Assembly: GCA_947503005.1 (NCBI GenBank)
Contig: CANNCA010000007.1
Coordinates: 62,001-126,000 of the forward strand
DNA length: 64,000 nt
Source: an uncultured Flavobacteriaceae bacterium
Lineage (GTDB): Bacteria > Bacteroidota > Bacteroidia > Flavobacteriales > Flavobacteriaceae
Reading direction: 5' to 3'
Shown in pieces: positions 39,727 to 59,500 of this stretch. The notes below the pieces were generated by a model. It was given only the letters and a program-made list of their open reading frames with translations. It ran no database searches and was not told the origin of the DNA. Position numbers and translations under genes: made by a program. How positions within the stretch are numbered: position 1 is the first letter of the stretch; each line of letters starts with the position of its first letter.

Positions 39727-40803
39727 TTATGATGGTAGAAAAAGGACACCACTTGAAGAATCTCTTTTTGCTCCAGTGACCGATTTTAAAACGTTGATTT
39801 CGTGTTCCATACGCAATGCACCCATTAAAGCGAAAACAATGGCTTCTTTAAATTCAATAAGTTCTTTTTTTGGAACAACAACCTCGGTCCGTTCCCCCAA
39901 TTTTTCTTGTAGAACTTCGACCAGAAAATGATTTAAGGCCCCTCCGCCTGTAATAAATAGTGAGGATGAACTTTTAGAGCTATTAAGTTTCACTTGTTGG
40001 GCCACTTTTTCACAAATATGATGGATGGCGGTATGCAACAGATTTTCGGTCGTATCATTGGTATTGTCAACAATTGGAACCACTTCTTCAACGAACCACT
40101 CATATCCAATGGATTTTGGATGCGGCAACAGATAGTATTTTAATCCATTTAGTCTATCCAACATATTTAGATTGATTCTTCCGGAACGTGCCAATTCCCC
40201 TCCCTTATCATATGCTAAATCGATTCTTCTTGTGATGTAATTCAGAATCATATTCGCTAGGCCAATGTCATAAGCAATTCGCTTTCCTTTTTGTTCCAAT
40301 GAAATGTTACTGATTCCTCCTAGGTTCAAACAAAAATCATACTCCCCAAAAAACAAGTGATCGCCAATAGGTACCAACGGGGCACCTTGTCCACCTAGTG
40401 CAACATCATTGGTTCTAAAGTCGCAGACAACTTTGTAACCACTTTCATTAGCCAAATGCTGACCCGAACCAATTTGAAATGTAAGTCCATTTTCCGGTTG
40501 GTGATGTGTGGTATGACCATGACTGGCTATAAAGTCAACGTCAAGTTTTTTTTCAGAAATAAACTGTTTTGCTTGTTTACCCAACCATGTTCCGTAAGTA
40601 TTGTGAAATTGCAACAACGCATCTGCCTTTAAATAAATGGAATCTTTTAGTTCCGATTGCATCTCATCGGTATAGGAAATGCTTTTGGTATCCTGTATTT
40701 CGAAAGACCATTTATCTTTGTCTTTGGAAATATGGCAACAACAAAGATCAAGACCGTCTAAAGATGTACCTGACATCAAGCCTATGATTTTAAATGTCTT
40801 CAT
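39727..40803 (-). CDS. anmK: Anhydro-N-acetylmuramic acid kinase
   Basis: A 358-residue sugar kinase that converts 1,6-anhydro-MurNAc from wall turnover to MurNAc-6-phosphate. Motifs: GLMSGTSLDGLD (phosphate-binding), IASHGHTTHH, FRTNDVALGGQGAPLVP, NLGGISNISL and TGGGALN. It is cytoplasmic. The gene lies 5 bases after the GH3 gene, and the product feeds MurQ, encoded at the other end of the island. Last gene of the minus-strand recycling unit. Confidence 0.94.
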   Translation of the reverse strand: MKTFKIIGLMSGTSLDGLDLCCCHISKDKDKWSFEIQDTKSISYTDEMQSELKDSIYLKADALLQFHNTYGTWLGKQAKQFISEKKLDVDFIASHGHTTHHQPENGLTFQIGSGQHLANESGYKVVCDFRTNDVALGGQGAPLVPIGDHLFFGEYDFCLNLGGISNISLEQKGKRIAYDIGLANMILNYITRRIDLAYDKGGELARSGRINLNMLDRLNGLKYYLLPHPKSIGYEWFVEEVVPIVDNTNDTTENLLHTAIHHICEKVAQQVKLNSSKSSSSLFITGGGALNHFLVEVLQEKLGERTEVVVPKKELIEFKEAIVFALMGALRMEHEINVLKSVTGAKRDSSSGVLFLPS

Positions 40804-40808
40804 CAGCT

Positions 40809-42371
40809 TTAATTTATGGTTATGGGCAATTTACCCTTCGCCTCGATTTTACCCAAAAAATGCTTGGTTGCCACGTCTTGAAATTCAACAAATGACTGAT
40901 ATGCAATAATAACAGCAAGTGCGTCGTCAATATTCAAATGATTCAAAACATACGGATTACCAAAAAGATATAAAACCACGTTTTTCGTTTGTATCAGTTC
41001 ATTTATAAAATCGATTTCCTCCTGTAATAATCCGAAATTGTTTGTTGGCTTAACTTGTGGAGGTGTCAATAAAATAAGAATTTCTTTTTCTGCCGCTACC
41101 TCAGATTTCATTTCTTTGAGACTTTCTAAAAGGAGGTTCTTGTGGTCTGATTCAAGCGATGAACGTTTAATGGTTAGCGTACAAAAGTTCGTATTTCTGA
41201 AAGTTGTTATTTCAGTTTCGTTTCCTTTCAGCAATGTCAAACTGTTTTCTGCCAGTATTCGATTGAGTTCTTGGGGGTTTATTAATTCGATTGAACCCTT
41301 TAGTTTAGTAGTTATAGCCTTTTTTTTAAGTTTCCAAATACGTTCAAAACTTTCTTGTATCTGTTGTTCGGAGGCATTTTTAAGAATCTTCTCAATTCCT
41401 TCGGAAATATGTTCAGCAAAACACAGAATATCATTTCCAGCGTCGAAAGCTAGCCACTCTAGTTCACCTTTTGTAGGGTAATTTTTAGATACTGCATGCA
41501 TATTCAATGCATCGGAGATAACTACTCCATCAAAACCCATTTCCTTTCGAAGAAGACCTTTGATGATTTTCTTGGAAATACTTGAAGATATTGTTTCCCC
41601 ATTTGCTAAAGACGGAACGGATAAATGCCCGACCATAACGGAATCGACACCTTCATCAATTAATTTTTGAAAGGGATAGAGTTCATTTTGAATTAATTCT
41701 CTCTTGGACTTTTCAATCAGCGGTAGTCCCAAATGGGAATCCGTTTCCGTATCTCCATGTCCTGGGAAATGCTTTATGCTGGTTAAAATACCCTCACTTT
41801 GAGTACCTTTTACAAACGCAAGCGCTTTGTTTGCGACTTGTATTTTATTTTCACCAAAAGAACGATACCCGATTACAGGATTGTTCGGATTGTTATTAAT
41901 GTCAACACAAGGTGCAAGGTTCCAATGGATTCCTGCCGATTTACAGTCTTTTGCGATATTTTTTCCTACTTCAAAAATTAAATTATCATTATGTTGAATT
42001 GCGCCTAAAGTAATGGCATATGGATATTGCGGCGTATTTTCAATACGCATTGCCAAACCCCATTCTGCGTCGATTGCTATTAGTAATGGATATTTCGAAC
42101 CGCTTTGATAGCGTCTAATCAGCTTTTGAAGCGTTTGAAAACTATCGGCATTGAAAATGACCTTCTTCCTACCTTCATAATTGGTAGCTGCACTGGCTCG
42201 GCTGTGAAAAAAACATAACCCTCCAATGGCATATTGTTGGATCAAGTCTTCCAGTCGTTGAATCTCTTCTTCCGAATCGTTAACAAAGGCCGCGGGCATG
42301 AATAATTGCCCAACTTTTTCAGCTACCCTTAGCGTTTTACTAGCATTATTATATTTCAATAGTTTATTCAT
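40809..42371 (-). CDS. GH3 beta-N-acetylglucosaminidase (NagZ-like), cytoplasmic, with C-terminal domain
   Basis: 520 residues from the ATG at 42371. The GH3 barrel carries KHFPGHGDTETDSHLGLP, with the His and Asp of the NagZ-type catalytic dyad, and the nucleophile Asp in VISDALNMHAV. It releases GlcNAc from anhydro-muropeptides or from glycan fragments. No signal peptide, so cytoplasmic action after import is expected, unlike the exported GH3 of many Bacteroidota. A C-terminal GH3-like alpha/beta domain (about 370-520) is present, as in two-domain enzymes. The frame extends to 42410 inside the upstream permease gene; the ATG one base after its stop is preferred. Confidence 0.87.
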   Translation of the reverse strand: MNKLLKYNNASKTLRVAEKVGQLFMPAAFVNDSEEEIQRLEDLIQQYAIGGLCFFHSRASAATNYEGRKKVIFNADSFQTLQKLIRRYQSGSKYPLLIAIDAEWGLAMRIENTPQYPYAITLGAIQHNDNLIFEVGKNIAKDCKSAGIHWNLAPCVDINNNPNNPVIGYRSFGENKIQVANKALAFVKGTQSEGILTSIKHFPGHGDTETDSHLGLPLIEKSKRELIQNELYPFQKLIDEGVDSVMVGHLSVPSLANGETISSSISKKIIKGLLRKEMGFDGVVISDALNMHAVSKNYPTKGELEWLAFDAGNDILCFAEHISEGIEKILKNASEQQIQESFERIWKLKKKAITTKLKGSIELINPQELNRILAENSLTLLKGNETEITTFRNTNFCTLTIKRSSLESDHKNLLLESLKEMKSEVAAEKEILILLTPPQVKPTNNFGLLQEEIDFINELIQTKNVVLYLFGNPYVLNHLNIDDALAVIIAYQSFVEFQDVATKHFLGKIEAKGKLPITIN

Positions 42372-42372
42372 G

Positions 42373-43635
42373 TTAAGCTTTTGCTTTGCCAAAATCAGGG
42401 GGGTAATCAATATATTTCAATAGGATAAAAGCGGGAAGTGCGGCAATTACCACCCAAATAAAGAAACCGTCATAACCTAACCATTCTTGCATAAAACCAC
42501 TTATCAGACCAGGAAGCATCATGCCTAGGGCCATGAACCCAGTGGCAAGGGCATAATGCGAAGTTTTAGATGCGCCTTCTGCAATATAGATCAAGTAGAC
42601 CATAAAGCCTGCAATGCCAAATCCGTAACCGAATTGCTCAACGATTACCGTTCCGGTAACTGCATATACGTTGGTTGTTTCCGTGATGGCTAATAAAGCA
42701 TAAAGTGCATTGGGAGCGTTGAGCGAAATAAGCATTGGTAGCATCCATTTTTTGAGACCTTGTTTAGAAATTAATATTCCACCTAGTATTCCTCCTATCG
42801 TCAAAAATATGACCCCGATAGTTCCATAAATAGTACCTACTTCAGAGGTGGTATAACCTAACCCTCCAACAGAAGTTGGATCGAGTAAGAAGGGCGAAGC
42901 CATTTTCACCAACTGCGATTCTCCAAGTCTAAAAAATAGGATAAAAGCTAAGGCCATACCCATACCTGGTTTGCTGAAAAAGGAGACAAATACTTCTATA
43001 AACCCTTTGGGTTTTTCTAGTGTTATTGCCTCTGAGCTTTCAAATTTAGGAGCAACAAAGAAGTTCGAAATAGTCAGCAGCAGCATAAGCAATGCGGCAC
43101 AGATCATGGTATACGACCAAGCTTTGGTATTATCACCATAATGGTTTTCTAAAAATCCGGCCAAGACCACCAGCAAGCCCTGTCCCGTTACATTGGCCAA
43201 TTTATAAAATACACTTCGCATACCAACAAAAAACGATTGCTTCTCCTCTGTGAGACCTATCATGTAATAACCATCTGTTGCAATATCATTGGTTGCAGAG
43301 GCAAAAGCGACCATCCAAAAACAGGCAAGACTAGTAATAAAAAAAATGTTCGTCGGGAGGGTTAGACCTATTGCCAATAGTGCAATCGATGCAAGCAGTT
43401 GCATCCCTAGAAACCAATTGCGTTTGGTGCTTTTTAAATCCACAAAGGGACTCCATAATGGTTTAATTACCCAAGGTATATATAAGAAACTAGTATACAG
43501 GCCAATATCAGCGTTGCTGACACCTAGCTTCTTGTACATAATAACCGATACAGTAACCACTAGGGCATAGGGCAGGCCTTGTGCAAAATAGAGCGTTGGC
43601 ACCCACGCCCAAGCCCATTTATTTTTTTGAATCAT
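42373..43635 (-). CDS. AmpG-like MFS permease for muropeptides
   Basis: A 420-residue MFS transporter with 12 predicted helices. The start, WVPTLYFAQGLPYALV, and SATNDIATDGYYMIGLTEE-type loop match AmpG. AmpG imports GlcNAc-1,6-anhydroMurNAc peptides into the cytoplasm for recycling. Its neighbours (GH3 NagZ, AnmK, MurQ and a GHL10 lipoprotein) strongly support this substrate. It overlaps the upstream GHL10 gene by 17 bases and precedes the GH3 gene by one base, so it is in the same operon. Confidence 0.85.
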   Translation of the reverse strand: MIQKNKWAWAWVPTLYFAQGLPYALVVTVSVIMYKKLGVSNADIGLYTSFLYIPWVIKPLWSPFVDLKSTKRNWFLGMQLLASIALLAIGLTLPTNIFFITSLACFWMVAFASATNDIATDGYYMIGLTEEKQSFFVGMRSVFYKLANVTGQGLLVVLAGFLENHYGDNTKAWSYTMICAALLMLLLTISNFFVAPKFESSEAITLEKPKGFIEVFVSFFSKPGMGMALAFILFFRLGESQLVKMASPFLLDPTSVGGLGYTTSEVGTIYGTIGVIFLTIGGILGGILISKQGLKKWMLPMLISLNAPNALYALLAITETTNVYAVTGTVIVEQFGYGFGIAGFMVYLIYIAEGASKTSHYALATGFMALGMMLPGLISGFMQEWLGYDGFFIWVVIAALPAFILLKYIDYPPDFGKAKA

Positions 43636-45151
43636 ATCGGTTGGTTTGTTTTAAATGTATGATTTTCGGTTCACTTTGATTTCCATTTTTATCAACAAAA
43701 AGCAGAGCGATTTGTTTTTTTCGCTTAATTAATTCCGTTGGCAGTACTAATTGGTTGTTGATATTAATAAAAGCTCTTGTCAAAAATTTTTTGGGAGGAT
43801 AGATTTTATCGTTGATTTTTCCGGATTTATACACCAAAGCATAGTGGGTGTTCTCCAAGTTATCGAATCTTAACAAGGTGTAATCTTTGGTTTTTTCTAT
43901 GGAATGTAATCGAGTCCAATGATTTTTAGAAACCGATGATTCGTAAGTGTTAGGAGGTAAGGCGGGTCTCTTGTAAAGTCGCCTCTTCAGATATTTAACT
44001 ACGTCTTGATTATTGGTCATTAAACTTTTTGCACTAAAAAATGCATTACCACTTATGTCACTTTTAGTTCTAGCATAGCTGATTTGATTCGGGAGCTCTT
44101 TTTTGTTTTCCCAAGCTGAATCACTGTTATTTCTAATTTTATAAGGACCATTGCCAATGTAGAGATTGGTATTCGTGGTATTGTTCGACCACCAATCCAC
44201 AATTTTACGATGTGAAGCTACCGGTAAATCCATGCTCCAGTATACTTGTGGAATCAGATAATCAAGCCATCCTTTTTCCATCCAGAGTAGGGGGTCGGCG
44301 TATAGGTTTTCATAAGTGGTTTGTCCAGCTTTGGTATCCGAACCTTTGGGGTCTGTAGATTTGTTCTTCCAAACTCCAAACGGACTTACTCCAAATTGTA
44401 CCCAAGGTTTTCTTTTTTTTATGACATCATAGCTCTTTCTTATCAACGAATCGATATTACTTCGCCTCCAATCTCCCAGCGATTGATTGGGTAATCCGCA
44501 GTTATAATAGGTAATTGTATCTTGAAATACTTCGTCCTTGATCGTATAGGGATAAAAATAGTCATCATAATGAATGGCATCGATATCGTAGTTCGCCACA
44601 ATCTCGTCTATGACGGAAACCAAATGTTGTTGTACTTCAGGTAATCCCGGGTCGTAGTAGTATTTCTTTCCGTATTTCAACATCCATTCTGGATGAGTAT
44701 TGAAATCATGGTCTGGGCTTAGTATTTCCGTTTTTAAATCAAATGTTGCGCGATAGGGGTTGAGCCAGGCATGAAATTCCATTCCATGGGCATGTGTCTC
44801 ATGAATCATCCATCGTAAAAGATCTTCTTCCGTATTGGGGCTTTTGCCTTCTTGACCTGTTAAAAATCGAGACCAAGGTGCAAAGTCAGACTCGTAAAAT
44901 GCGTCCCCTGCTGTTCTGACCTGAACAATTGCCGCATTAAAATTTAGGTCTTGATAAAAATTTAAGATTTTAACATAATCAGCTTTTTTCTTCTCTATGG
45001 CATCATTACCATTTTTAGGCCAATCAATATTAACGACCGTAGCTACCCAAAAACCGCGAAATTCAGTTTCCGGCTGAGGTATAGTTTTAAAAACCGTACA
45101 TGCGTTAAAAAATATAAGAAGAAGGAGGAGAATGCAACTGTTTTTGAGCAT
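43619..45151 (-). CDS. GHL10/DUF187 family glycoside hydrolase lipoprotein (DigH-like)
   Basis: A 510-residue lipoprotein (lipobox FNAC, Cys18). The family-10-like barrel follows: EFRGFWVATVVNIDWP, FNAAIVQVRTAGDAFYESDFAPWSRFLTG, GMEFHAWLNPYRAT, DAIHYDDYFYPY and FGVSPFGVWKN. DigH (YddW) of E. coli, a GHL10 enzyme, cleaves denuded peptidoglycan glycan strands, and the neighbours here are all wall-recycling genes. A role in making transportable wall fragments is therefore likely. The C-terminus (about 420-510) looks like an Ig-type beta domain. It overlaps the AmpG-like gene by 17 bases; a terminator-like hairpin lies upstream. Confidence 0.85.
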   Translation of the reverse strand: MLKNSCILLLLLIFFNACTVFKTIPQPETEFRGFWVATVVNIDWPKNGNDAIEKKKADYVKILNFYQDLNFNAAIVQVRTAGDAFYESDFAPWSRFLTGQEGKSPNTEEDLLRWMIHETHAHGMEFHAWLNPYRATFDLKTEILSPDHDFNTHPEWMLKYGKKYYYDPGLPEVQQHLVSVIDEIVANYDIDAIHYDDYFYPYTIKDEVFQDTITYYNCGLPNQSLGDWRRSNIDSLIRKSYDVIKKRKPWVQFGVSPFGVWKNKSTDPKGSDTKAGQTTYENLYADPLLWMEKGWLDYLIPQVYWSMDLPVASHRKIVDWWSNNTTNTNLYIGNGPYKIRNNSDSAWENKKELPNQISYARTKSDISGNAFFSAKSLMTNNQDVVKYLKRRLYKRPALPPNTYESSVSKNHWTRLHSIEKTKDYTLLRFDNLENTHYALVYKSGKINDKIYPPKKFLTRAFININNQLVLPTELIKRKKQIALLFVDKNGNQSEPKIIHLKQTNRYDSKK

Positions 45152-45210: not shown

Positions 45211-47160
45211 TTAATCAAACCTGTGTCGAACAAACGCCTCCATAGCCGCGTAGTCCGAAAGTCCTAATGCGCGGTATCTTGCGGCAGTATTTTTATTGCG
45301 TTCTTCGGCCCGCATCCAAAATTCTCTTGAATCCTCACCTTGAAACATCACACCGTCTTTTTGAGATTGATGCGCAAAAATGGCGTTACGCTTTTTGAGT
45401 ACCTGACTTGGGCTCATTGGTACGGCCATTTCAATTTCGTTGACATCCCATTCGTGCCAAGCTCCACGATACAACCACAACCAGCAATCATTCATGAAGG
45501 GTTCTGTTTTCAAACGTTTAATTGCTTCAAATACAGCATCCAAACATACTTTGTGAGTACCGTGCGGATCGGCAAGGTCACCAGCGGCATAAATTTGATG
45601 CGGTTGTATCTCTTTGATGATTTTCATTACGATTTGGATATCATCCTCCGATAAATTATTCTTTTTGATGGTTCCCGTTTCATAGAATGGAAGATCTAAG
45701 AAATGTACGTTCTCATCTTGTAGCCCGAGGTAACGGGTTGCGGCATATGATTCACCTCTTCTGATGTTGCCTTTCAGTTTCCGTACTTCAAGGGAATCGA
45801 AGCTACTTTCCTTTTTTTCTTTTATGGCATCGATGATTTTTTGAGCTTCTTTTGAAGGACTGATTCGTTTCGAAATTTCTGCGTAACGAAGGGCATCGGT
45901 GTCTGAAACTGCTATATTGCCCGAAGTCTGATAGGCTACATGAACTTCGTGGCCCTGTTCAACTAATCGGTCAAAGGTCCCGCCCATGGAAATAACATCG
46001 TCGTCGGGGTGGGGACTGAAAATAATTACACGTTTTTTGGCGGGTTTGGCCCTTTCTGGCCTATAAGTGTCATCCGCATTAGGTTTGCCGCCTGGCCAAC
46101 CCGTAATGGTATGTTGTAGGCGATTGAACATTTTGATGTTCAAGTCATAGGAATCTTGCGCTCTCAACAACCCTGACATGCCATTGTCATTATAATCCTT
46201 ATCAGTAAGACTCAAAATTGATTTATTGGTTTCCCCGCATAACCAGACCATTGCCTTAGCTGTTAGACTTTCGTTCCATTCCAATGATTCATCAACCAGC
46301 CATGGTGTCTTATTTCTGGTCAATTCGATTCCTGCACCTGTATCTAGAACAAACGTACAGTTTTTGTGATGCTGTAAATAGGTAGCAGGTACGTGAGACG
46401 AAATCTCACCTTCGACTGTTTTCTTAATGATGTCCGCTTTGTTTTGCCCCCATCCAAGCAAAACGATTCTCTTGGCACTCATTACGGATGCAATACCCAT
46501 GGTGATTGCTTTTCTTGGTACATTATCAATTCCTAGAAAGGCTGGAGCAGCATCGATACGAGTAATATGATCAAGAGTAATCACACGCGTACCTGAATTG
46601 TAATGTGAGCCGGGTTCATTGAAACCAACATGCCCTGTACGACCAATTCCTAAGAGTTGAAAATCCAATCCACCGAATTGTTTAATTGCTTTTTCATAGG
46701 CGAGACAATAATCAATAGCGAACTCGCTCGCAATTGTTCCATCAGGAATGTGGATGTTTTCCCTCGGGATGTCAATATGATTGAATAAATGCTCATGCAT
46801 GAAATACCAATAACTCTGATGGTTGTCGCTGTCCATTGGCAAATATTCGTCAAGGTTAAAAGTCACCACATTCGAGAAACTTAATCCCTCTTCTTGGTGC
46901 ATCCGAACCAATTCCTCGTAGACGCGAATAGGAGAGGAGCCCGTTGCCAACCCCAGAACACAGTTTTTATTCGAAGCTTGTTTTTTTCTAATCAATGCCG
47001 CGATTTCTTGAGCTACTTTTATAGAGGCTTCATTGGAATCTTCAAAAATCACATTATGGATTTTTTCAAATCGCGTTTCTTCAAACTGACCTACGGGTTT
47101 GAAGCTGATACTTTTTACTGTTCTTTCTTCTTTAGATTTCATGGTCAAAGTTGCTATCAT
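45211..47160 (-). CDS. Glucosamine-6-phosphate deaminase (NagB) fused to a PIG-L-type deacetylase
   Basis: A 649-residue fusion. Residues about 30-300 are NagB-like, which converts glucosamine-6-phosphate to fructose-6-phosphate and ammonia: LATGSSPIRVYEEL, FNLDEYLPMD with Asp104, and GIGRTGHVGFNEPG with His177 and Glu182. Where E. coli NagB has Asp141 (NDGH), this protein has Thr175. Residues about 375-600 are PIG-L/LmbE-like: SPHPDDDVISMGG with His384-Asp386-Asp387 (the usual Glu is Asp388), and DPHGTH at 531-536. PIG-L enzymes remove N-acetyl groups from GlcNAc-containing compounds. A GlcNAc-6-phosphate to fructose-6-phosphate bifunctional enzyme is inferred, since no nagA is in the window. 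ATG at 47160 is used; 47142 is possible. Confidence 0.9.
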   Translation of the reverse strand: MIATLTMKSKEERTVKSISFKPVGQFEETRFEKIHNVIFEDSNEASIKVAQEIAALIRKKQASNKNCVLGLATGSSPIRVYEELVRMHQEEGLSFSNVVTFNLDEYLPMDSDNHQSYWYFMHEHLFNHIDIPRENIHIPDGTIASEFAIDYCLAYEKAIKQFGGLDFQLLGIGRTGHVGFNEPGSHYNSGTRVITLDHITRIDAAPAFLGIDNVPRKAITMGIASVMSAKRIVLLGWGQNKADIIKKTVEGEISSHVPATYLQHHKNCTFVLDTGAGIELTRNKTPWLVDESLEWNESLTAKAMVWLCGETNKSILSLTDKDYNDNGMSGLLRAQDSYDLNIKMFNRLQHTITGWPGGKPNADDTYRPERAKPAKKRVIIFSPHPDDDVISMGGTFDRLVEQGHEVHVAYQTSGNIAVSDTDALRYAEISKRISPSKEAQKIIDAIKEKKESSFDSLEVRKLKGNIRRGESYAATRYLGLQDENVHFLDLPFYETGTIKKNNLSEDDIQIVMKIIKEIQPHQIYAAGDLADPHGTHKVCLDAVFEAIKRLKTEPFMNDCWLWLYRGAWHEWDVNEIEMAVPMSPSQVLKKRNAIFAHQSQKDGVMFQGEDSREFWMRAEERNKNTAARYRALGLSDYAAMEAFVRHRFD

Positions 47161-47188
47161 ATGTGTTTAAGATGGAATTAAAACACGG

Positions 47189-47196
47189 CAAATGTA
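47189..47196 (-). promoter_or_regulatory. TAnnTTTG promoter box of nagB-PIG-L
   Basis: TACATTTG on the minus strand, an exact match to TAnnTTTG, 28 bases upstream of the ATG at 47160. It overlaps the CACGGCA variant of the putative operator core by two bases. No TTG at canonical -33 spacing was found. Confidence 0.5.
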
Positions 47197-47306
47197 TGCA
47201 ATAAAATTAATAAATGCTGTTTTTTGCAATAAAATATGCCGTTTTGTGCATTTTTAAATAATTAAATCGTTTAAAGTAGAAAAAAACGGCAAATCAAAAT
47301 ATTGAT

Positions 47307-47314
47307 TATATTTG
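47307..47314 (+). promoter_or_regulatory. TAnnTTTG promoter box of the DeoR regulator and murQ
   Basis: TATATTTG on the plus strand, matching TAnnTTTG, 19 bases before the ATG at 47334. AAAACGGCA (47283-47291), a putative operator core, lies about 16 bases upstream, in the position where RNA polymerase binds. An AAGGAAGA stretch at 47323-47330 before the ATG could serve as a weak ribosome-binding site. Confidence 0.55.
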
Positions 47315-47333
47315 TATCCTCTAAGGAAGATTT

Positions 47334-48083
47334 ATGTTAAAAGAAGAACGACAGCAGACGATTCTAAATGAAGTGGAGTTGCATAATCGAGTGTTATTAA
47401 CCGATATTGCAGAGACCCTTGACGTTTCTATTGACACGATTCGACGTGACGTTAAGGAACTCGATGCCGAGCATAAGTTGCGTAAAGTTCATGGTGGTGC
47501 AATCTCTTTGGGGTTTACCACAAATAGTACTCGGAATACCAATATTTACGCCCTTGACGAAAAAATAAAGATTGCCGAAAAAGCAAGCACCCTTTTAAAG
47601 GATGGAAGTGTAATTTTCATTGACGGAGGAACAACTTGTTTAGAGCTTGCGAGGATGATTCCAGAAAATCTCGAAATCACTTGTTTTACGTTGAGCCTTC
47701 CAGTAGCTATGCAGCTTACTTCAAAATCTAAAGTAACGGTGATTTTTATCGGAGGTCAGATTTCGAAAGATGCTCAAATATCCATTGGTGCCAATGCTAT
47801 TCATAATTTATCTGAAATTAAGGTGGATTATAGTTTCATCGGTACAGGTTATGTTGATTCTACGTATGGATTGACGGAATTCGATTGGGATATTGTACAG
47901 TTGAAAAAAGCAGTAATAAAAGCGGCCAAGAAAACGGTACTTCTATGTATATCTGAGAAATTGAATTCACAGCATCGTTATAAAACTTGTGATATCAATG
48001 CGATTAACACGATGATTACCGAGCTACCTCCTGAAAACCAACTTCTGAATTCCTTTAAGAACCACGACATTCGAATTTTATAA
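47334..48083 (+). CDS. DeoR-family transcriptional regulator of amino sugar / wall recycling
   Basis: A 249-residue DeoR/GlpR-type regulator. The N-terminal helix-turn-helix has LLTDIAETLDVSIDTIRRDVKEL and the typical KVHGGAI that follows. The DeoRC sensor domain (about 75-235) has FIDGGTTCLELARMIPENL, a ribose/phosphosugar-isomerase-like fold that binds phosphorylated sugars. It is divergent from nagB-PIG-L and 4 bases upstream of murQ, so it probably senses GlcNAc-6-phosphate, glucosamine-6-phosphate or MurNAc-6-phosphate and represses both directions. The effector is inferred. Confidence 0.88.
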   Translation: MLKEERQQTILNEVELHNRVLLTDIAETLDVSIDTIRRDVKELDAEHKLRKVHGGAISLGFTTNSTRNTNIYALDEKIKIAEKASTLLKDGSVIFIDGGTTCLELARMIPENLEITCFTLSLPVAMQLTSKSKVTVIFIGGQISKDAQISIGANAIHNLSEIKVDYSFIGTGYVDSTYGLTEFDWDIVQLKKAVIKAAKKTVLLCISEKLNSQHRYKTCDINAINTMITELPPENQLLNSFKNHDIRIL

Positions 48084-48087
48084 ACCT

Positions 48088-48897
48088 ATGAACTATATCA
48101 AAATCACTGAAACTCCTTCCAATCACGATAATTTAGAGCAGTTGGATACTGCCTCAATTCTTCAAAAAATGAATGAGGAAGACAAAAAAGTGGCAGATGC
48201 TGTGGCACTTTGTATTCCTCAAATCACAAAACTGGTGAATGCACTGACCGAGCGATTTGAAAAAGGTGGACGATTATTTTACATTGGCGCAGGAACCAGT
48301 GGTCGTTTGGGAATTTTGGATGCTTCAGAAATTCCTCCGACTTATGGAATGCCTCATGAACGGGTGGTAGGATTGATTGCAGGTGGCGATACGGCCATTC
48401 GTAAATCGGTTGAACACGCAGAGGATGATAGGGCGCAGGCTTGGGCAGATTTAATGGCCCATGAAATTAATGATTTGGATGTTGTTGTGGGTATTGCCGC
48501 TTCCGGAACTACCCCTTATGTTTTAGGAGGCATAGCAGATGCCAAGAAAAATGGCTTACTTACTGGTGGGATTACAAATAACCCTGGTTCCCCATTGGCA
48601 AAAGCCGTGGATATTCCTATAGAAATCAATGTTGGCCCTGAGTTCGTTACCGGAAGTACACGAATGAAAAGCGGCACCTCTCAAAAACTGGCCTTGAATA
48701 TGATTTCGACCGCTTTGATGATAAGAATTGGTCGGGTAAAGGGTAACAAAATGGTGAACATGCAATTGAGCAACAATAAATTAGTAGATCGAGGTGTTCG
48801 GTACGTTGTGGAAGGTTTGGGAATTGACTATGCTGAAGCTGAGGAACTACTAAAAAAACACGGTTCAGTTAAAAAGGCGATAGAAGCGGGAAATTAG
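48088..48897 (+). CDS. murQ: N-acetylmuramic acid 6-phosphate etherase
   Basis: A 269-residue SIS-domain lyase that removes D-lactate from MurNAc-6-phosphate to give GlcNAc-6-phosphate. Motifs: RLFYIGAGTSGRLGILDASEIPPTYG with the catalytic Glu, LIAGGDTAIRKSVEHAEDD, GIAASGTTPYV, and VTGSTRMKSGTSQKLALNMIS. It is a little shorter than E. coli MurQ. It is co-transcribed with the DeoR gene (4-base gap). AnmK supplies its substrate from anhydroMurNAc, and the NagB-PIG-L protein can use its product. The 3' end overlaps the convergent cytochrome gene by 4 bases. Confidence 0.95.
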   Translation: MNYIKITETPSNHDNLEQLDTASILQKMNEEDKKVADAVALCIPQITKLVNALTERFEKGGRLFYIGAGTSGRLGILDASEIPPTYGMPHERVVGLIAGGDTAIRKSVEHAEDDRAQAWADLMAHEINDLDVVVGIAASGTTPYVLGGIADAKKNGLLTGGITNNPGSPLAKAVDIPIEINVGPEFVTGSTRMKSGTSQKLALNMISTALMIRIGRVKGNKMVNMQLSNNKLVDRGVRYVVEGLGIDYAEAEELLKKHGSVKKAIEAGN

Positions 48898-50567: not shown

Positions 50568-53500
50568 ATGCTCCCTAGAAAAAAAAGGCATCTTTTGTAT
50601 GCGCTATTCCTACTGACCCTTTCAGTAGTTTGCACGACTGCCCTTGCCAATAACAAAGTCTTTACGCTTATAGTCGACGTTGCTTCGGCAATCGAGGAAA
50701 AACTGCCCGTTTCGGATAACGAAGCTGAAGAGGGGTCTTCTAACTCAATAGCAAATTCAACAGCAAGATCACGAACTAGTATAAGTAATACCTCGTTCAT
50801 GCCACCAAGTATTATCAATGGCGGTGATGCCGAGGTGGGTTGTGGCGTTGACGGTTCGTCTGTTGTGCAAGTCTTCTTATGCGGGGATTATGATACAAAG
50901 CCCCTAACCTTGCAAGGAAATCCCTCTGGAGCAGTATGGGAACGCTATATACCTAATGGAGGTTGTACCTTGGATTTTGATGATAACTGTCCTTCTTTTC
51001 TGGTTTCCGGTAGTGGTTGTAACAATACTGGAGCAAGTTGGACGCAAGTAGCAACAGGTGGCGCATATACTATTCTCCCCGCTGATGTGCCTGTGGCCTC
51101 AGGTACTGAATACCGAGTTCGATCCGGTGGGGTAACTTACTACATCAAGGCGACTAAAAGTGCTTTTGCATATTCTTCAGAGGTAAAAAACGTTGTTTGT
51201 GGAACTTTAGGAAGTATACGTATTACTTCACTATCTCCAGCGTATGAGTTAAGAATTGCTGCGGGTGGCGGGGGTTTTGGACCATGGCAAGATTCTAAAG
51301 AGTTTACTGATTTGACGGTAGGTGCTTATACAGTAGAGGTACGACTTAAAAATACACCTGGAGCTTGTGAGTACCCATATCCTCCTTTTAATATCGTAGA
51401 AAGAGATTTGGAGATCGATGTGACAGTAAATGATGCTACTTGCCCTGGCCAAAATGGGGACATTAATGTAGTGGTAAATGGCGCAGAAGTACCAGGGCCT
51501 TATTCATATACCTTAATTGATGCAGCCACTAATACAGAGATTATTACGCATTTGAGTTTACCAGATCCTTTTGATTCATTTCCAGACCAAAGTCCGGGAA
51601 CTTATATTGTTAAAGTTGAGACTCCTGAATGTCAAGATGATTTCTTCAGTGGCACTTTTGCACCTACGCAAGACGAAGACATCAATGGAAACCCAATAGT
51701 TATAGGACAAGGTCTACAGCCAATTGTCGCCGATGCCAACCTTAACGGACAAAGTTTCGGTTGCGCAAATATCACGAGTATTGATATCGATATTACAACT
51801 ATAGGAGGAACACCACCTTATACATATACGGTAACGAGTACAAGCAGCGGTAGCGGAACTTCTCCGGCACCCTATACGGATACCGAGACTTCAATTTACT
51901 CTGTAACGGCCTCGGATACCTATACCTTTACCTTTACCGATGCCAATGGTTGTAGCCCAGATAGTCCGTTATCCGTATATATAGACGATTTGCCTCCACC
52001 TATTATAAATCCTGAACCAGTTTTAGGAACCTGTACCAATGGAGGAGGAAAGATTGATTTTCAGGTCGTGAGTAATCCAGGTTATGATTTGGAGTTTCGG
52101 GTTTCTTCTGCTGATCCTTGGGTCAACTATAATTTGGTAAATGTTCCAGATAATACTTATAATGACATGTGGGTACGTTATTCGCAGGGTGCTTTTTCTT
52201 GTGAGATACAGATTTCGGATACAGTTGTTGTAACCTCGGATTCTAGTATTACTGGTTTTGCCTCGGTAACTGCTGATTTCACATGTTCAGCTGGTGGGGG
52301 TACCATTACTTTTAATCCTGGTATGACCGCAGGTGGAACCGGCACTGGCTATGAATATAGTATTGACAACGTAAACTATCAAGCAGGAACTGTCTTTTCC
52401 GGATTGGCACCTGGTTCATACACTCCTTTTATAAGAGACGATTCTGATTGTCGCCAACCTATTGGAGCGCCCTTGGTCATTAACGATCCAGCCGCTCCGA
52501 CAGATATAACCTTCGCTCAAGGCGGTATTGATTGTGCAGCCGGAACCAGTGAAGTAACGGTTACCGTAGTGGGTGGCGCAGCAGTTGCCACCTATGAAAT
52601 TATTGCTCCTGCCGGTGCTGTTACGGGCCCACAGCCAAGCAATATATTTCCTAATCTTTTATTGGATACCAGACATGATTTCATCATTACCGATGTCAAT
52701 GGATGTGACCACCCAGCAAGTTTTGTCACTGGGGGAATCAGCACCATTCAAGCAAGAATTAAGGCAGGTGGTGATACCAATGTTTGTGCAGGGGCTACCG
52801 ATGGTTTTGGAGCTTTTATTATTGATGGTTTTTTTCCAGATACACCAGGTACAGATTATAGTTATACCATTGTTGGGCCAAGTGTTAATGTAAGTGGAAA
52901 TAGTAGTGATCTTGAAATTCCGATATCAGGTCTTGGAGTAGGTACCTTTACCATTACCGTGACTGATAGTGATACTAATTGTACCGATACTGCTGATTTA
53001 GTTATTGCGGATGCTCCTACATTGTCGGTTACCGCTAACGTGACAGATATGTCTTGTACCAATGGTAACGTTGGAACTGTTCAAGCAACAAAAGTGGGAG
53101 GCTTTTCCGGTCAGGAACAATATAGATTGACCTACCCTGATTTAACGACCATTGTCGGTTGGAAGAATGGAAGGTTTTTTGGAGGACTAAATCAAACAGG
53201 TACCTATACTCTTGAGGTACGAGACTCTGAGGGCTGTATTGCTAGTACAACTTTTAATTTAGTCTCTTTAGGAGCTCCTACTATTTCTGAGGGAGCCATT
53301 AACCGTTGTTATACATCAAGTAGTTCTGCATCTATAGAAGTATTTTCAGCAGTCGGTACTGGTAATCTGAATGATCACCGCTTCCGTATCGTTGGTCAAG
53401 CTTTGCAACCATTGGGTACACCTGGCACACATACATTTACCAATTTGGTTCCCGGTACGTATACTATAGAGGTAGAAAATATTGTAACCAATTGTACGGC

Positions 53501-56500
53501 GACATTAGCTCCAATTACTATTGAACCTGAACTTCAGGTGCAACTTAATCTTAATAGCGAAATCGCTTGTGGTGGTGATGGCGCCATTGATATTGTAGTT
53601 ACAGGAGGCGATATTTCAGATTTGACTTCCACGTCCTATACCTTAAGAAAGGATGGTATTGATGTTCCTGGGCATATCGGAGTGCAGTTGCCTTCAAACC
53701 CTTTTACATACACAGTTCCATTTGGGGAGCATGGCGATTATACTATTGAGCTTACGGATAACAATACCTGTACTGATATATCGGATCCATTGACAATGAT
53801 TGAACCGACCAATATCACTGCAACTGCAAACCCAACTGGCCCTAGCTGTGGAGATCCAAATAGTGGTTTTGTAGAGCTCGTTCCTACTGTAAATCCCGGA
53901 ATAGCACCATTTCAATATGTATTTGGACCAGTCGGGTCTCTCACGGATGTGGTAACAGCACCGAATTATCCAGATGGCAATGCTGGTGATGGTGTTTTAT
54001 ACACTTTTTCGTCACAAAATATTTACAGTGGTTTGGCCGCTGGTACCTATGAGTATATCGTCATTGATGATAGAGGTTGTCCGACCTCTTTACAAACGGT
54101 CGTGGTTGTTGCGAATGCAGACCCTGCTCCTGTGGTCAATGCAACGCCTATAGATGCAACTTGTAGTCCAGGTGCTCCAGCTAGTGGAGGAATTACCATA
54201 AACAGTATTACTCCCGGTAGTCCAAATTACAACATTGTTGTTGAGGATAATTTTGGAAATCAATTTTTCGTACAGAATAATGTTTCTCCGGGTGATTTAC
54301 CCTTGGTCATTACAGACCCTAGTTTCATTCCGGGTAATTACCAAGTTATTGTTGTCGATGCAAGAGGTTGTAATGATATTCAACCTGTGAGCATTGCCAG
54401 CGCTACCTTAGATATCATTCCAGATCCGATTATTCCCCCAGTTGTTTGTACGCCAGGTGGTGAGACGCTCTGTGTTGAGGTTGTTGGTGGTACGCTTCCT
54501 GAGAATTACGAAATTCGAATGGTTACCGACCCGGTATCTCCTTGGTTACCTTTGAATAGTCCACCAGATCGTCATTGTTTTGCAAATCTTTTACTAGGTG
54601 TTTCTTATACCATTGAGGTAAGGGATGTAAATACAGGTTGTACGTATCAAGAAGTAATTACATTGCCCGATGGACCTAATATTGCGGTTACTCTAGACGT
54701 AGATGGAGCCACATGTAGAAATGGAGATGTAGGGGTTAATTACACCATAGATGGTTCCAATGCCGGTACACCACCCTATAACGTTACTATAACTAATTTG
54801 GATACTGGTGTAATTGTTCATAACGCGGTAGGGACTTTTGACCTAACCCTTGCAACGGATCTTACCGTGCCTTCGGGTCGTTATGGTGTTGCAATTGAAG
54901 ATTCAGGCGACTGTTCTGCCGGTGCTGAAGGAGAGGCCATTTTGAATGCACCTAGAGTTGATATTGTATCTAATCAAAATGCAAATTGTAACGCACCGGG
55001 CTTACTTACGGTGCGAGGTAGTGGAGGTACACCTTACCCGGCAAGCGGCGTTGGCTCTTTACCTGACGGATCTCCTTACGAGTATGCTTATGTTCAGGCT
55101 GGATTTCCTGTAGATGAGGATGGCACATTAACGCCTGCTGACCCAACAGATGATTTTACAACTGCAACGACAGTTTCTTTAACAGGCTCCTTGGCCCCAG
55201 GAACCTCATATGATATTTATGTTAGAGACTTCAATGCTTGTGCCTATAGAATATCAACTGCAGTAATACAAGAAGATCCGCCTTTACCGGCTCCGACAAT
55301 TACGGTAAACAATCAGTGCGATGTTACTACGCCTGTTGGTGGTTTTGAAATTACCGTAGAAATGCCCGGAAATATAGATACTCCAACCTTTACATTAGAT
55401 GGGGTGAGTCTTACACCCGCTTATACGCCGGGAGTACCTACCCAAGCCATATTTTATGTAAATAGTATCGGAAACTACCCGGTAAACATAACAGATATCA
55501 ATGGTTGTTTTGTGGATGATTCTGCAGAGATATATCAGGTTTTATCTGCGTCGGCTGATTTTACGTCTACCCCACCTACATGTACCAATCCGGATGGTGA
55601 GATTGTTATTACGGTCAATGGAGGTAGTGGAGACTATGATTTCGACCTTACGGGTATTGACTATAATACGAACCCAATTGCTCCCGTAAATCAAACGAAT
55701 AATGGCACATTTACTGGTATCGCTCCTGGTACCTACGAGGTTATCGTTACCGATAATCAGGTAACCGGTGCACTAGGTGCTCCCTGTACCTATACTGTGA
55801 GCGGTATTGTCAGTACCACACCGACGACGCCTAATATTATCGATACAGGTGAAACAGACATCACTTGTAATAATGCAAATGACGGTAGCATTACCTTGAT
55901 TTTAGACCCTCTCACAATTGTTGATGGTATCAGTGAATATCGTTTATATGATAGTGGTAATACTCTTGTTGCTTCAGACCCTACAATCGGAACCTTTACA
56001 AACTTAGGTCCGGACACTTATAGAGTTGAGGTTGAGTCTGTCAGAGGTTGTATTGATACCGAAACAGTGACTATTGCAAACCCTGATCCCTTTAGAATAT
56101 TGGATCCCTCACCAGTGACATTCCAATGTTCTCCAGGCTCAAATCAAGTAAGTTCAGCGACTTTTACAGTTCAAGTGGATCCAGCGGCTCAAGGAACAAC
56201 CGGAGACTACCGTTTCCGACTTGACCCCGCAGACAGTTACGTTTCAAACCCTACTTTTGAGGTGTTTGATGATGGTACGATACAAAATATAGTAATTGAA
56301 GCCATTGATGCGCGAGGTTGTCCAGCATCTGTTCCTATAACCATTAATCCTCCTTCAGATGTTAGCGGTGTAATTAACCAAGTTGCACCGATGAGTTGTA
56401 TTCAAGGTGAAATGATTGACGTAGTTGTTTCGATGACCACACCGGCGGATTATGTGGTAAGATTCAATGCCAATTCCGTAGCGACTTTAGCTGACAGTCC

Positions 56501-59500
56501 TAATATTCCAGCAGGAACGACAAATTATGCAATCACGCTTCCTCAAGAAGAAGGAGATTACTATCTGGAAATTGTATCTGGGGGCTGTGTATATCCTATT
56601 CCAGTATATACCGTATTGCCTCCTGTAGATCCGGTAATTACTATTGCCGAGATTACTCCTGAGACATGTTTTAATGCAAGAAATGGTATCATTTCCATTG
56701 AAATTGCCAATTATACAGGGAATGATTATACCTATTGGGTATACGATGCTGCCGATCCAGGTTTCTTAAGTGATGATTTTACGGCTTCGACTCCTTTGAC
56801 AGGAGCTTCTGGACCATTAGATGGACTGACGATAGATATTGGCACCGATGGAAACCCAGCAACTATCAATGATGTTCCAAGCGGAAATATTAGGGTAGTC
56901 GTACGCGAAGATGATGCTCCTAATTGTTTGGGATATAGTAATGTGATAACAGTACGTTCTCCGAACCCAGCTGGGCCATTGGAAGTATTCAATCTGGGCC
57001 AAGACCAAACCGTTGGTTGTTCTGATGATTTGGGTATCATTAGTTACGATGCTCAATATGGATGGGATACCGATCCGTTTACCTTCACCATTGCAAGGGA
57101 AGATCAACCTTCCGGTGCACCACGAACTGGTAACTGGATTGATTTGGTAAGCAATAGCCCACAACGGTCGCTTAGTGGTTTAGCTGCAGGATGGTATCGC
57201 GTTACAGTTACCGATATATACAATTGTACTGGGGTTCAAGAAATTGAATTATTACCTGAGCCACCGGTTGAAGTTGCATTGAATATCGAAAGGCAATTGG
57301 AATGCCCGAACGGAACTGATGCAATTATAGTAGCGGTTGACCCTAATGATATGGTCACTGAAGGCGCAATTGGTGGTGTTCCCGGAGAACAGTTTTTGTA
57401 TCAATTAATTAAGTTGGATTCCAATCATCCGGATCCTTTGAATCAAGATCCAGCTAACCCAGCAAATCGTGAATTCGAATATGGACAACAAACGTCTCCT
57501 AGATTTGAAGGAAGTGGTGGAATCGGTGTGATTCCTGCTGGTTTCTACTCGGTATTGGTAGAAGGGCCTTATGGTTGCGGAGCATATTCTCCTGTTATAG
57601 AAGTCATTCCTCCTTTACCTATTAATCCACAGTTAAGACTGGTATCGGCGCCTGCTTGTGGAGACCCTGGTATTTTAGAGTTAAAAGTGTTCAACTTTGA
57701 ACCAGGAGTCACTTATCAGTATAGAGTTCTAGGCTCTTCCGATCCATGGGTAGACATGGTTGATCAAGCTGGTACGGCAGTTGAGAACATCAATGGTGTA
57801 GTTGGTCAGATTTATGAATTTGAAGTGCAAAAAGTTGGCGCTTTTGGTAGTTGTTTGGCACGTTTTAGTAACCAGATAGAGGTCAAAGACCCCTCTGTAT
57901 TGACTATTGATCCCGCGTCACCTCAGTCTCCACCTTCGTGCAGTTCTATAGAGGATGGGCGAATAGAGATAAAAGCATCTGGTGGAACAGGAATTTATCA
58001 ATACTCTTTATATATCGACACTGTAGTACCTGCCAATATATATAGAGCACCTCAAACAAGTCCAAATTTCGAAAATTTACCACCCAATTTACCCGGTGAA
58101 TCCTATGTGGCCTTGGTCACAAGCGGTAGTACTTGCTTAGAAACCTTTACGTTTCATCTTGATCCCGCTATAGCCGTCTCAATTACCCCAAGTGCACAAA
58201 ATGTACTTTGTTATGGTGATGAGACCGGAAGTATAACAATGACCGTAGATGCTTCTTACCCTGGCCTAGTAGAATTCGCGATCGAACCTAATTTTGCTGA
58301 TTTGGATTCGGACCCAACTAATCCTTTGGTATATACGTTTACCGACTTACCGGTTAAAGCCGATGGTTCGCCTTATCGTGTACTTGCCCAAGATGCGGAT
58401 GGTTGTCCTTACTTCTTTGATATTCCTTTGACACAACCGGATCAATTACAAATCACTGATTTGCAGACCACACCTGAGCTATGTATCGGGGCCAATGACG
58501 GCACTGTAATATTTGATATTCAAGGCGGAACAGCATTCAATGATCCCATGGTAAGCCCCACACCATATTTTGAATATAAGATTGAGATGATCAGTCCTAT
58601 AGACGAAATAGGCACAGGAACGTTTATGCCTTATGACGGTCAAGTCATCCAAAACTTAATTGGTGGTGCAACCTATGAGTTGTTTGTTCAAGATGCCAAC
58701 GGTTGCCCTACAAGTGACGTATTCACAATTGATATCGGAGTGGATCTATCCGCCGAGCCATTGGTTCAATATGGTTGTGAGGGAATATTTCCGAATAGTA
58801 CAGCCACTGTGGTATTGGACGATCCAAGTTTGTTACCTGATCTTTTGTTTTATCTAGAGGATATGAATACTACAGATCCTCCGCTGACGGCACAAGAGAT
58901 GATTGATTTGGCGGATACGCAATATACTTGGGGCGATTTACCTGCTAGTAATTATCAGGTTCATATTTTCCATCAAAATGGTTGTTCAATTATTGTGGAC
59001 TTGGGTGAGATATTGGCTTATGAACCATTGACCCTTTCAACTCCAGAGAAAACTGCCCCTAATGAGATAACCATTGCGGCTTCTGGCGGATATGGCGATT
59101 ATGAGTATTTCTTCCAAGGGGAATCTCAAGGAGCGGATAATGTGTATGTGTCTAACCAAGATATGAACGTTGAAATCGAAGTACGTGATAGTATGGGTTG
59201 TGTTGTAACGGCAAGTATCCCTTTCGATTTCACCGGTATGCTTGAGATACCCAATTTCTTTACGCCGGATGGGGATAACAATAACGATGTTTGGTTCCCA
59301 AGAAACCGTGAGTTCTTCCCCAATATAGAAGTAAAGATTTACGATCGATATGGTAGGGTAGTGGCTATTTTGAACCAAATTGAATCTTGGGATGGTACCT
59401 ATGAAGGTAATGAGTTGCCTTCAGGAGACTATTGGTATGTTGTAAATCAGAATGATGACCGAAAAACAAGATACGTAGGTCACTTCACACTCTATCGATA

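Follow-up and report, generated by a model that had tools for sequence, protein, structure and literature searches.

A NagB-PIG-L fusion as a predicted bifunctional GlcNAc-6-phosphate deacetylase and glucosamine-6-phosphate deaminase

A single gene in the peptidoglycan-recycling locus of an uncultured Flavobacteriaceae bacterium encodes a NagB-like domain fused to a PIG-L/LmbE domain, and the protein is predicted, with reasonable confidence, to be a bifunctional N-acetylglucosamine-6-phosphate (GlcNAc-6-P) deacetylase and glucosamine-6-phosphate (GlcN-6-P) deaminase. The gene occupies positions 45211-47160 (minus strand) of the window, that is, the whole stretch of 64,000 nucleotides that was analysed; it starts with ATG and codes for 649 amino acids. 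In this bacterium the PIG-L domain probably performs the missing NagA step, and it may do the same in many related bacteria. Muropeptides would enter through AmpG, NagZ and AnmK would yield GlcNAc and N-acetylmuramic acid 6-phosphate (MurNAc-6-P), MurQ would turn MurNAc-6-P into GlcNAc-6-P, and a fusion of this short form would take GlcNAc-6-P to fructose-6-P in one polypeptide. GlcNAc-6-P would thereby be the substrate of a catalytically active PIG-L half, possibly with passage of substrate between the two halves of the chain.

The fusion protein and its locus

Both domains are recovered by profile searches. Glucosamine_iso (PF01182) covers residues 41-268 (81.9 bits) and PIG-L (PF02585) residues 380-547 (71.7 bits), each above its curated Pfam cut-off, and the architecture as a whole is already annotated in NCBIfam as family NF002557 (PRK02122), the same two-domain protein, which matches the fusion over its full length (1056.3 bits against a cut-off of 384, profile positions 5-651 of 653). 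The fusion also matches the NagB family TIGR00502 (256 bits, above the cut-off of 236.9), and the NagA family TIGR00221 is absent from the families that match it at E <= 0.001. On the minus strand, families, Pfam and fold place the NagB-like half at residues ~38-283 (46312-47049); it is joined through a linker region (residues ~284-375, 46036-46311), which contains TGWPGGKPNADD, to the PIG-L/LmbE half at residues ~376-649 (45214-46035), delimited by Pfam, residues and fold. The original prediction had described a NagB-PIG-L fusion carrying HPDDD, DPHGTH and Thr175, and all of these are present: HPDDD spans residues 384-388, DPHGTH residues 531-536, and Thr175 sits within GIGRTGHVGFNEPGS.

In the predicted structure (mean pLDDT 86.7, pTM 0.80), built on an alignment of 57 of the best 80 of 591 fusion loci from named genomes, each half is modelled with a known fold. 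The modelled NagB half superimposes on Bacillus subtilis NagB (2bkv) with an rmsd of 1.1 A over 242 residues and 42% identity. That monomeric GlcN-6-P deaminase (2bkv/2bkx) shares the active-site segments NLDEY and GH.GFNEPG with the fusion, but it has Asn at fusion Thr175 and Arg at fusion Pro206, and its 242-residue chain carries no PIG-L domain. The modelled PIG-L half aligns with BshB (6p2t; Z 21.9, rmsd 2.6, 209 residues), with the diacetylchitobiose deacetylase Dac (3wl4; Z 21.2, rmsd 2.7, 219 residues) and with MshB (Z 17.7). At E <= 1e-6 the PIG-L profile picks out a pair of PDB sequences, both of them diacetylchitobiose deacetylases, over 45 positions.

The fusion is the first gene of a minus-strand operon. 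It is followed by genes for a GHL10 glycosyl hydrolase-like protein (43619-45151; PF02638), an AmpG-like muropeptide transporter (42373-43635; MFS_1, with a best TIGR00901 score of 182.7 bits, below the cut-off of 350), a NagZ-like GH3 beta-N-acetylhexosaminidase (40809-42410; PF00933, with NF003740 at 148 bits, below the cut-off of 207) and the anhydro-N-acetylmuramic acid kinase AnmK (39727-40803; NF007144, 512 bits against a cut-off of 436). Transcribed divergently, on the plus strand, are a DeoR/GlpR-family regulator (47334-48083; PF00455 and PF08220, no equivalog over its cut-off), which lies between the fusion and murQ, and MurQ (48088-48897; NF003915, 374.5 bits against a cut-off of 168), the MurNAc-6-P etherase that makes GlcNAc-6-P. 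Nearly the same order, murQ-deoR / fusion-(GHL10)-ampG-GH3-anmK, is found in genomes G133, G129 and G181; no GHL10 is labelled at the G181 locus, and at the G133 locus two opposite-strand ORFs precede anmK. GHL10 is labelled near 9 of the 98 fusion loci considered below and could be a glycosidase that attacks fragments of peptidoglycan. Elsewhere in the window, a 2977-aa ORF (50568-59501) carries SprB repeats and, at its C-terminus, a CHU_C type IX secretion signal domain; it is likely a giant surface or gliding adhesin.

The 173-bp divergent intergenic region (47161-47333) holds TGCYGTTTTKTGC repeats, two exact on the plus strand (47215-47227 and 47237-47249) and one with a single mismatch on the minus strand (47279-47291), which may form a putative DeoR operator for both divergent transcripts; the DeoR protein would in that case control the fusion operon. 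At up to one mismatch the window contains five matches against 0.41 expected, three of them in the divergent region, and two of the four exact matches genome-wide fall there as well; since the pattern was taken from this very region, such counts describe its rarity only. Repeats of this kind can also be seen, by eye, in an alignment of three related genomes. The other two exact sites (L275, L276) are flanked by ORFs that, also by eye, are not amino-sugar-like.

Absence of nagA from the locus was part of the original prediction, and the absence extends to the whole genome (4,576,141 bases, 99.96% complete). In a whole-genome profile search no TIGR00221 match exceeds the cut-off of 225.65, the best of 12 partial matches reaching 31.1 bits over 43 profile positions. 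NagA catalyses the reaction proposed here for the fusion, and belongs to the amidohydrolase superfamily, with a fold unrelated to that of the PIG-L fusion. The genome encodes just two PF01182 proteins, and the fusion is its only recognisable GlcN-6-P deaminase, because the second is a 6-phosphogluconolactonase (TIGR01198, 208 bits), whose gene adjoins zwf (glucose-6-phosphate dehydrogenase; TIGR00871, 554 bits), and no NagB-II (NF046059) match exceeds the cut-off of 430; the best of these, at 143.6 bits, is a 616-aa frame that we take to be GlmS.

Conservation of the two active sites

Residues were counted in 98 full-length fusions, one of them (L089) without its N-terminus, from 78 of the 198 genomes of the phylum sample; the set excludes fragments in G098 and a piece with NagB alone that opens G029:C1. 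So many full-length copies in so many genomes argue that the fusion did not arise by chance. In the NagB half, D104 is kept in 97 copies, and H177, E182 and K241 in all 98. D104, H177 and E182 are the equivalents of the catalytic NagB residues Asp72, His143 and Glu148 (E. coli numbering). Phosphate is bound in E. coli NagB by Arg172 and Lys208. Lys241 is invariant in the fusions, but the position of Arg172 is Pro206 in this protein; of the 98 copies, 58 have Ser there and only 13 have Arg or Lys, which counts against the two-step reading. In the PIG-L half, H384, D387 and D388 are invariant, D386 is kept in 95 copies, and H533 and H536 in 96 each. The complete catalytic set of both halves is intact in 93 of the 98 fusions. 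Each linker residue from G354 to K359 is kept in 78 copies, the remaining 20 being gapped there.

H384, D386, D387 and H536 constitute the HXD1D2 + H motif of PIG-L/LmbE deacetylases, and H384, D387 and H536 would be the metal ligands. The catalytic motif of the superfamily has been given as HXDD + H (PMC4101496). The original prediction had also taken Thr175 and Asp388 as possible marks of an altered specificity, and these two arguments fail, leaving the core idea of a fusion that does the NagA step plausible. Position 175 is Thr in 59, Ser in 21 and Asn in 18 of the 98 fusions, so that the residue varies family-wide, and B. subtilis NagB itself has Asn. Asp388 is found in 98 of 98 copies and lies outside that catalytic motif (PMC4101496); both aligned diacetylchitobiose deacetylases have Cys there.

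Departures from the conserved set are few. Three copies carry D386A (L104 in G107, L106 in G170 and L108 in G118), each a second copy beside an intact one; all three have lost the catalytic base of the PIG-L half and two have also lost the third metal ligand. The G145 fusion carries H533N. In G166, which lacks nagA but encodes a second, separate nagB, the fusion carries D104A with the PIG-L residues intact, and a damaged NagB half next to a preserved PIG-L half fits with the idea that the latter has a job of its own.

It is quite unlikely that the PIG-L half is merely structural or regulatory and the protein a deaminase only, as its database name says. The name of NF002557 is 'glucosamine-6-phosphate deaminase-like protein', which covers the deaminase half only, and no function was found stated for the PIG-L half in that family. 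Of 118 records of plasmid relatives eight were listed, and the seven of these that are annotated are all named glucosamine-6-phosphate deaminase. A literature search of partial coverage, in which earlier reports may have been passed over, returned no paper pairing PIG-L with glucosamine-6-phosphate deaminase and none joining NagB, LmbE and Bacteroid. Diacetylchitobiose deacetylase, BshB and MshB share with the fusion the fold and the H-x-D-D plus distant H, but the fusion differs from PIG-L/LmbE deacetylases in having HGTH for HxDH, in being joined to NagB and in a substrate that is probably phosphorylated. By eye, the MshB HxDH residue Asp146 corresponds to Thr535 and MshB Tyr142 to Asp531, in both cases in 98 of 98 fusions; the Ala mutant of MshB Asp146 keeps no more than 1% activity (PMC4101496). 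These substitutions favour a deaminase-only protein, as does the retention of a nagA-like gene in some fusion genomes, one of them with nagA adjoining the fusion. Against it, the metal ligands and base of the PIG-L half are kept in at least 93 of the 98 copies at identities down to 42%, the copy with the damaged NagB half included, and four aligned proteins of a longer form, about 23% identical, keep the HxDD...H set.

Distribution of the fusion, MurQ and nagA in the phylum

The phylum sample was one fixed draw of 198 genomes, and its counts and Fisher tests ignore kinship. The nagA set comprises matches at E <= 1e-30 (32 genomes, six of them below the curated cut-off), with up to nine candidates scored per genome; stand-alone nagB was defined as an open frame of less than 400 aa scoring above 200 bits (29 genomes), and the searches for short fusions and stand-alone nagB listed the higher-scoring matches. 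The short fusion, with NF002557 over its cut-off, occurs in 78 of the 198 genomes, MurQ in 141, AnmK in 136 and nagA in 32. Every fusion genome has MurQ (78/78), against 63 of the 120 non-fusion genomes (Fisher 4.7e-16, kinship ignored), so the link between fusion and MurQ is strong. A strict exchange of the fusion with nagA is not seen. Of the fusion genomes, 58 of 78 have no nagA at E <= 1e-30, and 20 of 78 (15 over the curated cut-off) carry a nagA-like gene, more often than the other genomes (12 of 120), so that the fusion cannot simply have taken the place of nagA genome by genome. The proposed replacement of NagA holds in part: the bacterium studied here has no recognisable nagA and the pattern recurs in the phylum, but some genomes hold both nagA and the fusion. 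The nagA matches at L145, L167 and L053 are over the cut-off and the one at L169 is below it. In G067 a nagA over the cut-off adjoins the fusion; its other neighbours are genes for a GlcNAc 2-epimerase and a sialate-esterase-like protein, and this setting speaks for a NagA distinct from the fusion in that genome.

Among named genomes in the best 80 of 591 places, fusions are found in Flavobacterium, Dyadobacter, Runella, Pedobacter, Sphingobacterium, Hymenobacter, Prolixibacter, Balneolaceae and an Ignavibacteria MAG. Four genomes (G173, G024, G020 and G169) carry three or four fusion copies each at different loci, among them loci with GH20 and SusC/D, with GH92 and SSS, and of NagP type.

MurQ without nagA and without a short or long fusion is found in 39 of the 141 MurQ genomes (e.g. 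G028, G052, G056, G087 and G153), so a recognisable deacetylase is often missing where MurQ is present, and another route probably exists somewhere. These genomes are a reason to consider that another enzyme, such as an amidohydrolase or a different PIG-L protein, deacetylates GlcNAc-6-P and that the fusion is accessory, a reading compatible with a deaminase-only protein and, of the alternatives considered, the least probable for the bacterium studied here. No separate relative of the PIG-L half was found at E <= 1e-10 in 42 genomes, namely these 39 and G147, G004 and G092. The genome studied here does encode three further PIG-L proteins, besides its 12 partial nagA-profile matches, and all of them lie outside the peptidoglycan-recycling operon; the nagA-profile matches, moreover, are partial and score about 31 bits or less.

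Neighbour labels at the other fusion loci were assigned through cluster representatives or by BLAST at 1e-10. The Amidase_3 label may be over-called, since its query includes a sorting domain. Within six genes of the fusion, a labelled peptidoglycan-recycling gene is present at 30 of 98 loci and a GlcNAc gene (GH20, NagP-type, NagX-type, ROK or nagA) at 31; one or the other is found at only 51 loci, which counts against the two-step reading, and neither at 47. The gene nagA is a neighbour at one locus of 98, that of G067. The labelled neighbours of other copies include GH20 with SusC/D, NagP/gluP-type MFS transporters, NagX-type proteins, ROK kinases and AmpG, and they are consistent with GlcNAc use.

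Some of these neighbours could also suit a PIG-L half that acts on another N-acetyl sugar (free GlcNAc, chitobiose, anhMurNAc or MurNAc-6-P) while the NagB half uses GlcN-6-P from a different route, for instance a kinase on free GlcN. This we regard as improbable, though it is the most credible of the alternatives. Some copies adjoin GH20 or sugar transporters; among solved structures the closest in sequence are diacetylchitobiose deacetylases, joined by BshB and MshB when fold is compared, and the substrates listed for these three enzymes are not 6-phosphates (PMC4101496). On the other side, GlcNAc-6-P is the common product of the MurQ/AnmK, chitin-type, NagP-type and ROK kinase contexts, and MurQ accompanies the fusion in all 78 genomes; a cell with MurQ and no NagA would, moreover, still have GlcNAc-6-P to deacetylate.

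The chitin locus of Flavobacterium johnsoniae contains Fjoh_4557, which has been named nagB and described as a deaminase only (PMC5127042). Its expression in E. coli failed and its deletion left growth on chitin unaffected, a result that counts against the two-step reading; the authors suggest redundancy (PMC5127042). Three more nagB-like genes occur in the organism, and a NagA, Fjoh_3974, is predicted (PMC5127042). SusC/D and GH20 flank a 666-aa fusion in F. johnsoniae CI04 (L185), an arrangement that fits the published gene list of the UW101 chitin locus, so that by synteny Fjoh_4557 is very probably a NagB-PIG-L fusion, belonging to a chitin locus where the fusion studied here belongs to peptidoglycan recycling. 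A second CI04 fusion (L200, 3145-9890) follows LacI, a GHMP-type kinase and a nucleotidyltransferase-like gene, and is preceded by two NagP-like ORFs side by side, which may be a disrupted transporter gene or an artefact of assembly. In Echinicola vietnamensis, on our reading of the panel letters, NagX shows a glucosamine fitness effect without NagA, unlike in four other bacteria (PMC9007349). For Tannerella forsythia, conversion of MurNAc to GlcNAc-6-P via MurK/MurQ is described (PMC7670621).

A second architecture and its place in the phylum

Weak NF002557 matches led to NagB-PIG-L proteins of ~785 aa, four of which were aligned and are about 23% identical. In the NagB half of all four the catalytic Asp and His are kept and Glu is replaced by Val or Ile; the PIG-L half carries HHDDI and DPEGSGPDTH. 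Pfam recognises no domain in any of them at 1e-5. A profile built from these proteins detects the long form in 21 of the 198 genomes, with no overlap with the short fusion (Fisher 1.9e-5, kinship ignored). Stand-alone nagB without the short fusion occurs in 16 genomes, nine with nagA and seven without; the long form is present in four of the nine and in six of the seven, the exception being G147. A short fusion or a stand-alone nagB is present in 94 genomes, and 93 of these have nagA or one of the two fusion forms, 78 of them by definition. The long form seems to take the same place as the short fusion in other lineages. Three genomes (G018, G030 and G187) have it without MurQ. Its neighbours were read at 20 of 25 loci, taken with their flanks (L122-L125 and L254-L273 are among the long-form places), and include murQ at five and ampG at seven; at L270 there are Amidase_3, NlpC/P60 and an enolase-superfamily protein nearby, and at L254 GH94, two GH18 and a canonical nagB.

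On balance, though only by a little, the NagB-fused PIG-L domain is favoured as a predicted second, non-orthologous class of GlcNAc-6-P deacetylase, occurring in two architectures (~650 and ~785 aa), standing at the expected place of nagA in 64 of the 198 genomes and serving the conversion of GlcNAc-6-P to fructose-6-P. All 64 are without nagA; 58 have the short form and six the long form together with a stand-alone nagB. The proposal is weakest where 39 of 141 MurQ genomes offer no candidate, where 20 fusion genomes keep a nagA-like gene and where HxDH is altered. If it is true, peptidoglycan recycling and chitin/GlcNAc use would gain a missing step across a large share of the phylum, many proteins named just nagB would be under-annotated, and nagA gaps in metabolic models would need correction.
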